The notes under the pieces: model-generated
Databases searched by the model: none
What the model was told of the DNA's origin: nothing
Seen by the model: only the letters and a program-made list of their open reading frames with translations
Program-made: the position numbers and the translations under genes
Shown here: positions 27,801 through 41,100 of the stretch, one piece after another
Position numbering within the stretch: position 1 is the first letter of the stretch
Layout of the letters: the number at the start of each line of letters is the position of its first letter
DNA from: Beroe forskalii
Lineage: Eukaryota; Ctenophora; Nuda; Beroida; Beroidae
Reading direction: 5' to 3'
Length of the DNA: 64,000 nucleotides
NCBI GenBank assembly: GCA_011033025.1
Contig: WFMF01000369.1
Location: 114,121 to 178,120, forward strand

Positions 27801-30800
27801 GAGTAGATGAGTAGCAACTTCTTAATCTTGCACTAGGGTGTGGAAAATGTGATCAAATATCTCAACATCACCAACTGTAGGTTCTACATTTCGTCATTCG
27901 CATTACGCAAACCCTGAGCTGATCCAGTGATGGTGGTTCTGTAACCATCAATGCCAGACCAACCGGTTAACTCCATTTTTCAATTTATATGAAAAAATGA
28001 TATAGCGATCAATCCAAAGTTGGTATTTATATTAAACCACTCCTAACTCCATTCTCTTTTTTCTTGCCAATGCCCCTGACAACACTCCTTATATCTCATG
28101 ACAGTACCCTTGACAACACTCCTCATCTCTCAACCTCTCAGGACAATGCCCCTGACAACACTCTAGCCCCTGACAACACTCTCTAGCCCCTGACAACACT
28201 CCGCCTTCTCCTGACAGCACTTTTCCTGACAACACTCCTCCTTTTCCTGATAACACTCCTCCTCTCTCAGGACGATGCCCCTGACAACACCCGTACCCTC
28301 TACACCCTGACAACACTCCTCCTCTCTCAGGACAATGCCCCTGACAACACTCTCTAGCCTCTGACAACACTCACTACCCCCTGACAACACACTCTAGACC
28401 CTGACAACACTCCTCCTCTCTCAGGATAGTGCCCCTGACAACACTCCTCCTTTCTCAGGACAATGCCCCTGACAACACTCTAGCCCCTGACAACACTCTC
28501 TAGACCCTGACAACACTCTCTTACCCCTGACAACACTCCTCCTTTTCCTGACAACACTCCTCCTCTCTCAGGACAATGCCCCGCCAGACAGGCTGCAGTT
28601 AAGGCGGGTATTCCTCACTCCGTTCCAGCGTACAATGTCAACATGGTGTGTGGCAGTGGGATGCTAGCCGTCCATAACGCCTACTGCCATCTACTGAACA
28701 ATAGCAACGGTAGGTTTAAAAAGGAAAACGCTATCGATCGAGGTTCACAAACTTTACATTGTGTATCGGTGATTTTAACATGACGTTTTGTGAGACCAAC
28801 TATCATCTTCCCTCACTTTTGTTCAGTATACCATTAACAAACACTCGCTAAAAGCATGCTTTTATCTCTGAACTAGTAAACTCATCAAAGTCTGTGTGAC
28901 ATGCCATAACACACTTTTTAGAGCTTGTGGGGCCAGGGCCCACTCCAAGATTTCCTTCTAGGAGGGGGGGGGGCAAAATTTACTTGAGCAAATTTTCGTT
29001 TTTCTTGTTTTATTGATTGATTTAACTCTAAAAAGGTAAATATTTCTCTAACTGAACTTTAAACTACCATTTGATGTTCAAATTTGAGAAAATCTTTGAT
29101 ATGGCCAAGCCCCCCCCCCCCTAAGATTTTTCTAGAGGGGGCCTTTTCAAAACTAGGGCTTACTAGGGGGGCCTCGCCCCCCCCCCCCCCCCCCCAGCGT
29201 GTAATCCCATGCTGTGTGATTTTAATAAAATTTTGGTTAATTTTCCCCCTTGAGTATCGAGTAGTGAGGTTCTTTCTGACCACTAGTTTGATAAAGAAAA
29301 ATTTTGGACAATATTTGATATATTTCATGACAATGAATCTATGTGAGTAATCCGGCCCATTTCTCTGAATTAAGATTGTCTAGTGGCATCTGCTCTCTGA
29401 TTGCTCGCGTCAAAATCTAAAGTATCATCGTTAATAAGGTTTTAGAGCTGTCTGGTTAATGTCTTGTTACTGAGTTATCCTCATGTCAGCCCTGTCAATG
29501 TCAGAACTTTGGAATGCTCGTATTATTAAATAGCCACGTTTTATTAATTTAATAGTCACGCATGACAATCAACTGGACTAACACTAATCAATAATCATAG
29601 TATGCACGTGCGCAATACCGTATCCTAGTAACAGGTTCCATTTAGCCATTTATTTTGACTTTTTGGCAAGGTCGAGAAGGTTTACAGGGACTACGAAACT
29701 TCACTTCATGTAAATTCGCACGAATTGCTTTGATGAGAGACATGCAGACATTGGCAGAATATTAATTTCATTATTAATTTCAGAGATAGTGGTAGCGGGA
29801 GGACAGGAGAGCATGAGCCGAGCTCCCCACCTTATCAGCATGAGGGCTCCTAAACCGATGGGAAACGCAGAGTGCAAGGTATAGAGAATCTACTCAAAAC
29901 TACTTCCATATTGAGAAGTGAGCTTTTTAGATAATATGTTTCTTTTAGCGATCTTGCGCAATCCGAATGACAGAAGTAACACAGTCGACAGATCATAATA
30001 TGAATTTCTGGTGCGTTGATAAACCTTCAACGTCAGAATCACAAATATGAAGTAGGTGAGACTTGATCTGTGACTGCAGCTTTTATAGTTTGACAGCATT
30101 CTGAGTTCTGACGTTGAGTCACAAATGCTGTACTTATGCCACACATCATTTCAGGATTCGATGATATGCGACTCTTTAACCTGTGCGTTTAACGATTGTC
30201 ATATGGGAATCACAGCCGAGAACGTTGCCGAAAAGTATTCAATATCCCGACAAGATCAGGTTACTAGAATGAAACACAAGGATATGTTTTATTTCCTTCT
30301 CCAATAGAAATTATTGCCTTCCCATTGTAACGGCCTCTTCGAAGCTGTAGGGAAGCTTTCATCTTTCCTTCAGTCAAGTGAGCGCCTAGATCATATTCAG
30401 TATTCCTACAAGGTCACAGCTTGCCATCTTGGCTTTCTGTATCACCCAAGGCATATACAGTTTACTTACTGCAAACTAATGAGTTCAAATAAATCGCAAG
30501 AAATGACTGATGTCATTTCTAGATAATAACAAACTAACATCACCACGTCACTGAAAGAATCTATAATTTGCCACGGTCTAACAGGGTGGCCTGTCAATGA
30601 TTGAGCACCTCAGATGCTGAAAACGAACAAAATACTCACATGAACTATAATACTGACGAAACCTAGAATCTCTGTCATTGAATGTGCAGTATTTTTACGC
30701 AGAGGTTTACTGATTGGACTACTCCCCAAATTTTCCCACGCTACCCTGTCAATTATTGAGCTCAGATGTGTGCAGTTGTCGGCAGCCTAATTTACATCAA

Positions 30801-38100: not shown

Positions 38101-41100
38101 CCACGGACGCCTGAAGTCCTGCAACTGTGTGGTGGACGCCCATTGGGTCCTCAAAATAACGGACTATGGACTCATGAAGTTCCTGTCTTCGTATTCCCTA
38201 CCAGATCCCATCAAGTCCGAGGATGGAAAGTACTACGGTAAGGGATTTCACTTTACAACACTGCTTTATAGTTACAAATAGAGGAGAATCAATTATTGAC
38301 TCTTTTCATTACTCATACGGCAAGGGATCTTGATCAGCCAGGGAGGGGTAGTGTGTGTTGAGGTTTTACCAGAAAGTAGTACTAGGAAGTGTGTCTGTAT
38401 AGGAGTTACTAGGCGTAAAATCAAGGGTCATGAAACTAAAAGAACTATTTTTGCTGGTGCCTTGCCTGGCTTAATACGGTGGATGTCCTTGCTGTACGGC
38501 TTGTTAAACAAGGAACTGAAACCGTAGGGCTCCGTAATTCGCCAAACAATTCGCCTCTTCTCAACTCTCAGTTGACCTCAATTACCACTGAAAGCTCCTC
38601 TCCCCCATTAAAACCCCCTCCCTCCCCATTGAAACCCCCTCCTTCCCCATTGAAACCCCCTCCCTCCCCATTGAAACCCCCTCCCTCCCCATTGAAACCC
38701 CCTCCCTCCCCATTGAAACCCCCTCCCCTCCCCCCCATTCCAAGTCCCTCCTTCCCCAGATCTGCTGTGGACAGCCCCCGAGCTCCTCAGAACGATGGAG
38801 ACGCGGGAGGACAGATACGTGGGCTCCCAGAAGGGCGACGTTTTCTCCTTCGCTGTGATCCTCACCGAAATAATGTCCGCCAATACGCCCTACGGGGACA
38901 TCAACTGCTCGGCTAAAGGTACAATCGCATCAGAGTGTTTTGACAAGATGATTTGATAAATTATCACTGCTGGAGTTTGTGTTACTGGAAATGAATTTCG
39001 GCATGATATAGATCCTACCTTGAAAATCGTCAGTACGAATTATTGCCATGAATATTAATTTATTTGATTTATTTCACCCTCTTACTCTCCGTTGCAGAGA
39101 TCGTGACGAAAGTGAAGGACGGCTACAGTCCGCCCTTTCGACCCGACATGCCCGTGGAGTGCTCGGATGGGATGTCGGAGCTGACGCGGATGTGTTGGGA
39201 TGAAACCCCCTCCCTCCGACCGGACTTCCCTAAAATACTCGGATTCTTGCAGGCCCACCACCCCCAGAAGTATGATCATTGTTATGTGCTGTGTTAAACC
39301 GGTAATGGGGTTACGATACACATTAATTGCACAGCTGTTTACTCCCGTACCAAAGTCAAACTTGGTACTCTTGAAAATATTGGTACTTTGCTGAAGTACC
39401 AATTTTGGTATTTTCTCTGAATCAAAAACTTGATGCTTCATTCTTTACCGGCTCATTGCGTTCAGTAAAGCACTGTGTTCCTTCAGGCAGCGGTCCATCA
39501 CAGACCGCATAATAAAGATGATGTTAACACTCTGTCCCTTCAGGCAGCGGTCCATCACAGACCGCATGATAAAGATAATGTTAAACCCTCTGTCCCTTCA
39601 GGCAGTGGTCCATCACAGACCGCATGATAAAGATGATGTTAAACCCTCTTTCCCTTCAGGCAGCGGTCCATCACTGACCGCATGATAAAGGTGATGTTAA
39701 ACCCTCTGTCCCTTCAGGCAGCGGTCCATCACAGACCGCATGATAAAGATAATATTAACACTGTGTCCCTTCAAGCAGCGGTCCATCACTGACCGCATGA
39801 TAAAGATGATGTTAAAACCCTCTATCCCTTCAGGCAGCGGTCCATCACAGACCGCATGATAAAGATGATGGAGCAATATACAGACAACTTGGAGGATCTG
39901 GTAGCTGAGCGGAGCGAGCAGCTCGCTGTGGAGAAGGAGAAAGCGGACAACTTGCTCTGCCGCATGCTGCCTCAGTAAGTTTCTTTAATAATGCGTTAAC
40001 TCCTGGGTTCTTAAATACGTGCAACAATGGAGAAAAATACGCGTATTGGCTCCTGGAGAAGAAAACGCGTATTTTTTCAAAAGTATGTGATAAGAAATGG
40101 CAACACGAGGTCTGAATAGTGCTTGTGAACAGTACGCGCGCAGCGCGCTACCAAATAAAAATCTGAGCAAGAATTGTAAAGTTTCATTCGAGATCACCGT
40201 AAAGATTTGGGACGATGTGGGAAAATAGGAATCCACCGAATCCAATGTCTTATCTATAAATGTGCAAGGGTTTTTTAATCTACAAACTACACTACAGTAC
40301 AGAAGTGCTGCACCCTTGATCTGTCATATTTCTGATTTTATCGTACGGGGAAAAGGGGACATACGTAATGTCTGTGGCAAACCTATGGATATTCTTAAAT
40401 GCTGAATATTATGCAAAGGGATTATTTTTTACAAACCGCAGTACAGAAGTCCTGAAATCTGATCAAATGTCAGTTAGTAAAGGAACAAAGACTGTCTTTG
40501 ATATCCGTTTACCAATATTAAGAATTGAAAATTGCCCAAGTGGTGCGAAGCACCACGTTAAGGGGAATTAGAATTCTACTTATCGAAGCGAACATGAGCT
40601 AAATGTCTGCGTATCAATCACTATGCATCACTTTTATGTCTTCCTTCTTTTCATACGGATGCGCTCTTCATCATATCATATTATCACGAAGAGCGCAAAA
40701 TCGTGTTATACTATCAAATTAATTGAATATTTGATTGTTTGCTAATTGGACTAACTAGTTGTTAACTCAATAGGAATATAGCTAACTTCCTCTTTGATAG
40801 CTACTGGGTAGCTCCTGTTATTATATACATTATACCCTTTTATGCCTTTGATAGCTACTGGGTAGCTCCTGTTATTATATACATTATACTTTTATGTCTT
40901 CCGTATGAAATGTGGGAAAACACACATTTAGCTCATGAGAGCGAGATGAGTAGAATGGTAGTACTATCTATTTAGACTTCAGTTATGTGTTTACTTACAA
41001 AAATTTATTGCCAATTGTATAAAATTTGTGGAATTGAATTTTCATTATCCCATGAATGTTGACAGACTGTGTCAATTACTGATTGCATTCTTATCTTCTA

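Follow-up and report, generated by a model that had tools for sequence, protein, structure and literature searches.

Introduction

Tandem, minisatellite-like duplications of exon-intron boundaries, known as “mirages”, have been described in lancelets, where they affect the 5' or the 3' boundary in Adh3, the globins BflGb6 and BflGb9, troponin C and PGBD5 (PMC3087553, PMC3902484). According to excerpts of these reports, many of the copies keep the AG or GT, array length varies and splicing is undisturbed (PMC3087553, PMC3902484), and one lancelet paper, in its excerpted text, considers mirages possibly general in cephalochordates. Here, we describe arrays of this kind in the comb jelly Beroe forskalii, in a stretch of 64,000 nucleotides of contig WFMF01000369.1 (positions 114,121 to 178,120; referred to as the window), where the 3' splice site is repeated in front of exon 2 of an acetyl-CoA acetyltransferase-like gene (ACAT2) and in front of an exon of a receptor-cyclase-like gene. 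These arrays are very probably mirages as well, i.e., minisatellites from tandem duplications that by chance ran across an exon-intron boundary; the introns of this genome readily form minisatellites.

Like the lancelet mirages, the Beroe arrays duplicate either boundary and mostly keep AG or GT, but their host is a ctenophore and not a cephalochordate. In contrast to the single-gene reports from lancelets, the cases described here, known from DNA alone, occur in five Pfam families and at about 6% of boundaries, and they reach up to about 25 copies compared with 6 and 3 in two lancelet globin haplotypes, as far as the excerpted source gives them. Among the matches listed from the open-licence literature, the name “mirage” was used for lancelets only, and boundary-repeating minisatellites were found for lancelets only, plus the single human case of IFI6. 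The main texts of two ctenophore genome papers, as far as available, contain no word starting with “minisatellite”, and a Caenorhabditis elegans minisatellite paper considered as a parallel (PMC4039745) does not, in its excerpts, deal with boundary duplication. New are the phylum, the frequency and the finding of decoys as strong as the real sites; the structure itself is the known mirage.

Results

The ACAT2 array lies at the 3' end of the intron preceding exon 2 (coordinates refer to the window, slashes mark exon-intron boundaries):

24821-25004, plus strand: first coding exon of ACAT2, donor GGAAG/GTAGGG in phase 1; Thiolase_N match at 24830-25009, and the spliced reading fits solved thiolases
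28070-28571, plus strand: ACAT2 array, about 20 units of CCTGACAACACTC
28142-28469, plus strand: five decoy acceptors, with first “exon” bases at 28142, 28271, 28331, 28425 and 28459
28572-28709, plus strand: ACAT2 exon 2, with the 3'-most copy as real acceptor and the donor CAACG/GTAGGT; Thiolase_N 58-96 at 28568-28684

The unit CCTGACAACACTC combines a branch-point-like CTGAC with a pyrimidine tract; about 500 bases of such units precede position 28572, and five of them extend into CTCAG/GACAATGCCCC or a sequence close to it. At a tolerance of up to 3 mismatches, CTCTCTCAGGACAATGCCCC occurs six times in the window, always on the plus strand and within 28133-28582, compared with a mean of 0.00 in 100 dinucleotide shuffles. 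The last of these copies is the real acceptor, which leaves five extra sites, in agreement with the first-pass annotation. All copies share the 11 exon bases GACAATGCCCC (28572-28582), with substitutions there in two of the five extras, and Tandem Repeats Finder (TRF) places its rows for this array at 28148-28564. Across the junction, the spliced reading YAGEG/QCPARQ runs without a gap in the two thiolase alignments displayed. No second copy of the array locus was found in the genome search, which returned one 53-base match on another contig.

A comparable structure is present about 11 kb downstream, in the receptor-cyclase-like gene:

39098-39269, plus strand: upstream exon, ending AA/GTATGA in phase 2, set by open reading only
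39476-39833, plus strand: cyclase array, six extra copies of a 57-59 bp unit, with decoy exon starts at 39487, 39544, 39602, 39660, 39718 and 39775
39834-39974, plus strand: cyclase exon after the array, with the 3'-most copy as real acceptor and its end, CTCA/GTAAGT, set by eye; HNOBA match (E 0.00095, below the curated cut-off) and atrial natriuretic peptide (ANP) receptor match (E 4.9e-6)

Here, the unit consists of TTAA-type branch-point-like bases, a pyrimidine tract and CCTTCAG, followed by about 37 exon bases (GCAGCGGTCC...AAGATGATG) that bear substitutions here and there, so that the earlier figure of about 29 exon bases per copy was too low. The real acceptor and six extra ones, as originally proposed, are confirmed by seven occurrences of CCCTTCAGGCAGCGGTCC in 39479-39843 (shuffle mean 0.01), although one of the six decoys (39767) reads TTCAAG, with the AG displaced by one base and the exon start at 39775 (CAA/G). 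TRF describes the array as 58 bp x 6.8 with a score of 662 (39476-39870). The exon at 39834 aligns with the ANP receptor from its first full codon (QRSITDRM...), and a weaker match to guanylyl cyclase C (E 5e-5) begins four residues before this codon and thus spans the junction. The names coiled coil and kinase homology presumably apply to parts of this gene.

At both genes, the units thus span the intron end and the exon start, as in mirages, and hold the acceptor of the following exon together with exon bases, in agreement with the first-pass annotation. Because the exon is conserved coding sequence, as the thiolase and ANP receptor matches indicate, it is to be regarded as the source and the array as its derivative. 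The hardly conceivable alternative would be a dispersed minisatellite or mobile element that was inserted beside exons and happened to carry an acceptor. Pyrimidine-rich arrays with a similar core do occur at several loci, but every boundary array repeats the bases of its own exon, which is not expected of an insertion, and the genome search located the cyclase array at a single locus. Copy counts of tandem arrays are, moreover, prone to error, and copies could have been collapsed or expanded in the assembly. Such an artefact appears highly improbable, as private substitutions separate the copies in most arrays (some are nearly identical, e.g., at locus L040), the structure recurs at many loci and the shortest arrays (19-20 bp x 3) are too short to trouble an assembler.

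Arrays containing a boundary were looked for beyond the window, as had been suggested, and were found in further genes, at the 5' as well as the 3' end of introns. Besides the two window arrays, 14 duplicated boundaries were recorded (12 with paralogs merged), several of them with a single extra copy; at locus L024 the copies are spaced and not strictly tandem. The following arrays illustrate their range:

P-type ATPase acceptor: 79 bp x 4.8, with the codons for VDNSSLTGESE repeated
Myosin acceptor: 34 bp x 7.9, about 8 copies
Phosphatase donor: 65 bp x 13, with 54 exon bases in the unit
Donors of Guanylate_cyc-family paralogs, GCATCAA/GTTAGT: 34 bp x 7.8 and x 24.8 (8 and 25 copies)
Thiolase donor: 19 bp x 3

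The resulting 16 duplicated boundaries include two paralog pairs (the acceptor of L013/L015 and the donor of L013/L014) and hence comprise 14 independent ones. Their decoys were gathered by similarity to the real site (up to 6 mismatches in 25), a procedure that favours well-kept copies and misses worn ones; the scans for strength and for reading covered slightly different ranges, with 66 and 67 AG/GT decoys, respectively. Many but not all copies keep AG or GT (66 of 73 decoys), as is the case for mirages. Divergence amounts to 4.8% at the splice site itself, compared with 12.3% over the rest of the 25-nt window, and at 12 of the 16 boundaries the best decoy scores at least as high as the real site. 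With decoys so well kept and the best of them mostly equal or better, there is no sign of purging, and local strength cannot mark the real site. The coding outcome differs: 64 of the 67 decoys read lead to a stop and three to a frameshift, and none is open in frame. The exon-facing copy has an open frame in all 16 exons. By reading, the exon part of the inner copies measures about 8-40 bases in most cases and more than 50 in three. For the two window genes, a stop is reached from all five ACAT2 decoys after a few codons and from all six cyclase copies, which supports the prediction of an aberrant exon if an upstream copy were used.

In human IFI6 (6-16), a minisatellite likewise has repeat units with splice donors, and these multiple donors are, according to an excerpted source, used and give mRNA variants (Turri et al., 1995, cited in PMC4526556). 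Unlike there, none of the 67 Beroe decoys would leave an open frame. A use of the decoys on purpose, with regulated, unproductive (stop-containing and decayed) transcripts tuning expression, is considered very unlikely. The better conservation of AG/GT than of the surrounding bases and the stops from 64 of 67 decoys could be read in this way, but slippage itself copies AG/GT, the decoys were collected by similarity and a random frame yields stops anyway. Copy number also varies between paralogs, the arrays are spread over several unrelated families with a frequency close to the per-intron background, and lancelet mirages are reported, in the excerpts, to be without aberrant mRNAs (PMC3902484).

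The variation between paralogs is seen in a gene pair on contig C142, whose exons are near-identical (121/128 and 152/159 bases) and which differ in donor copies (8 vs 25) and acceptor copies (2 vs 3, the real one counted) within this one assembly. For the L014 donor, the automatic choice was the second copy, and the first, exon-facing one was taken by comparison with L013. At L013, the donor unit recurs about 31 times in a second array, 1855-2938 nt past the donor at 2605, and this intron holds almost 40 copies of one 5' splice-site unit in total. Elsewhere, TGACACCACTCTACCT is repeated 54 times in a myosin intron (L051), ending 7 nt before the acceptor, and its core matches the ACAT2 and cyclase arrays; the common core perhaps derives from the usual branch point and pyrimidine tract of this genome. 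On contig C484, two exon copies (L044 and L045) lie about 24 kb apart in opposite orientation, and upstream of their acceptors is a 53-bp array of at least 28 and of 6.5 copies, respectively.

For an estimate of frequency, exons of five Pfam families, picked irrespective of arrays, were located throughout the genome (216 Mb, 1,134 contigs; the window lies on contig C435), and part of the regions was fetched (246 kb). From 151 family-match rows, 143 were used (8 from long open frames were left out), 104 of which lie in the regions analysed; for myosin, 61 of 78 rows were used, and protein kinases (135 matches listed) were excluded, as in many rows a single open frame covers the entire domain. 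On the basis of matching phase and splice scores, 88 introns were built at 43 loci, some of them paralogous, with three introns from the window. A boundary was counted as duplicated if a 24-base window centred on it recurred with at least 20/24 identities in the adjoining intron, and intron-centred control windows were scored one-sidedly alike; one intron of less than 120 nt was excluded from this test. Six near-duplicate regions were removed from the first-sample coverage profile and the splice-score matrices, as well as from one of the two counts of spanned boundaries.

By this criterion, 5 of 87 acceptors and likewise 5 of 87 donors are duplicated (6 of 87 donors at 19/24 or more), with exact 95% limits of about 2-13% at each end, and at 4/84 acceptors and 5/84 donors without the three introns of the window. 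Counting boundaries spanned by TRF arrays in the first sample gave 4/75 acceptors and 5/84 donors, or 3/66 and 4/75 without the six near-duplicates. As in mirages, both 5' and 3' boundaries are consequently affected. At these rates, the view of the first-pass annotation that two such genes 11 kb apart are unusual is not supported, and neither is its focus on acceptors, as donors are affected equally often.

Arrays make up 14% of the sampled intron bases. At the same threshold, 10% of all intron-centred windows are duplicated, or 4.3-4.6% as a mean per intron; compared with 5.7% of boundaries, this makes boundaries neither clearly hot nor clearly protected. Arrays occurring equally often away from exons had been named beforehand as the observation speaking against a special role of exon edges, and the interior values come close to it. 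Growth only from exon edges or acceptors was rejected as an explanation, given the equal donor rate and interiors that are duplicated at least about as often.

The cyclase gene differs from ACAT2 and the sampled exons, which have an open frame at the level of the exon itself (not of whole genes). Three further arrays were recorded here:

38604-38759, plus strand: pyrimidine-rich array CCATTGAAACCCCCTCCCTCC, about 7 copies, stopping shortly before an exon acceptor at 38760 (exon by reading only)
43053-43380, plus strand: 14-base array CTTTGACACCACTC x 18 (array itself given as 43053-43302), starting inside the cyclase codons I F D T and breaking the catalytic-domain reading
43824-43941, plus strand: array CCACAACTCCCCCTTC x 7, immediately upstream of the acceptor of the cyclase exon at 43942

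Within 43021-43830, cyclase coding picks up again at about 43369, after which the next segment is present in two degraded copies; the whole-genome family search matched only the two ends of this catalytic domain (profile 2-44 and 108-177). To judge from its reading, the gene as assembled is probably defective, and its decoys may be tolerated for that reason.

Elsewhere in the window, two adjacent long open frames (15822-17312 and 17850-21413) encode ankyrin and RCC1 repeats, with BTB domains in the second only; judged from domain content, they are probably a tandem duplication. The assembly also contains a mitochondrial contig (C1134) of 13,339 bp with a GC content of 17.5%, which uses code 4 (COX1 with TGA as tryptophan) and has 13 long frames listed, all on one strand. 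ARAGORN, in its bacterial setting, found no tRNA in it. This resembles the B. forskalii mitogenomes of 13,357, 13,339 and 13,338 bases, for which the excerpted report gives a mean GC content of 17.3%, transcription in a single direction and an absence of conserved tRNA hits (PMC6991124). Two of the mitochondrial frames (L008, 4311-4694 and 7546-8652) have a near-identical start, and the second continues into a longer frame.

Discussion

Mirages of the type proposed here could arise in a few steps. After a duplication straddling a boundary, the copy facing the intact exon would remain the working site, and the inner copies would turn into intron. Later slippage or unequal exchange could multiply the unit and carry the splice signal and exon bases along. 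Such a process would require no preference for exon edges and could affect donors as well as acceptors. Exon definition is a general concept of splice-site recognition, and an influence of exon context on splice-site choice was reportedly described by Reed and Maniatis in 1986. According to this concept, a site would be selected together with the remainder of its exon, with contributions from exonic enhancers and from the opposite site at the other exon end. Exon definition is probably the cause of an exon-facing choice, because the inner copies hold only a scrap of exon and lie farther from the opposite site. If the exon-facing copy is reliably used, the duplications would be nearly neutral, which fits the near-background intronic rate. 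In lancelets, the normal splicing over such arrays, as far as the excerpts report it, is in line with this choice.

Several points weigh against this interpretation. That splicing takes the exon-facing copy is something we infer from the reading frame alone, and the tolerance of the cyclase decoys by itself proves little, as the catalytic domain looks damaged. In a cruder count of arrays, seven straddling ones (in six introns) were found on 176 boundaries, compared with 2.1-2.8 expected from the intronic array rate. Correcting by hand for bases covered by arrays raises the expectation to 2.4-3.2 (Poisson 0.006-0.046), and the excess would speak for a certain preference for boundaries. When windows are the unit of weighting, boundaries (6%) are duplicated less than interiors (10%), which could reflect some selection against straddling copies. 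Finally, the sample of 88 introns is small. Of the earlier claim that growth must begin at an exon edge, the boundary excess in the array count is thus what remains, whereas the duplicated intron interiors speak against it, and the true boundary preference probably lies between none and two- to threefold.

An excess of this size is what one would expect if splice boundaries were a hotspot, at which the branch point, the pyrimidine tract or the donor starts tandem duplication through strand asymmetry, R-loops or bound snRNPs (small nuclear ribonucleoproteins) on the nascent RNA. In the first sample, arrays covered 13-16% of positions 11-100 nt upstream of acceptors and 5-10% deeper in the intron, but with 88 introns coverage at 21-100 nt is 10% (95% range 5-17%) and equals that at 151-300 nt, and the window-based test gave no excess. 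The core TGACAMCACTC is common to separate arrays (ACAT2, cyclase at 43.05 kb and the myosin intron with 54 copies), and a pattern of two core units occurs at 7 places on 4 contigs (two in the window), with 0 for the reversed control. The pyrimidine content of arrays, in turn, did not vary significantly with position (rho 0.28, p 0.10), and a polarity with pyrimidine-rich arrays near acceptors and purine-rich ones near donors, striking by eye, was dropped on the same figures. Taken with these results, a hotspot is unlikely, albeit less so than the other alternatives. The branch-point consensus yTRAC was present 12-32 nt upstream of 12/56 array-free acceptors, compared with 5/56 at 36-56 nt, which is suggestive only.

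Besides chance straddling duplications, tandem duplication of splice signals has been discussed in the context of intron gain, which may proceed via AGGT proto-splice sites (Rogers; Zhuo et al., 2007; Gao and Lynch, 2009, cited in PMC3087553), and mirages were proposed to be able to become new introns, according to the excerpted text (PMC3087553). The Beroe arrays resemble this model in that a tandem duplication bears splice signals, but here the duplications lengthen introns.

For annotation, the arrays call for caution, as a gene predictor may pick a decoy copy. Their presence at several percent of the sampled boundaries of a comb jelly implies either a great age of this kind of array or an origin wherever minisatellites form quickly. 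Each array represents a natural experiment, in which local signals are near-identical and differ mainly in which of them faces the exon, and the old question of how the spliceosome chooses among equal sites becomes testable by RNA-seq at many loci of one animal. Tentatively, and with some doubt on our part, splicing in B. forskalii could be so strictly exon-defined that full-strength duplicates, even two dozen of them, cost nothing, and straddling duplications could accrue as fast as intronic ones, which extrapolates to thousands of genes. If true, duplicated splice sites would form a large natural library, on which intron lengthening and the formation of new introns could constantly draw.

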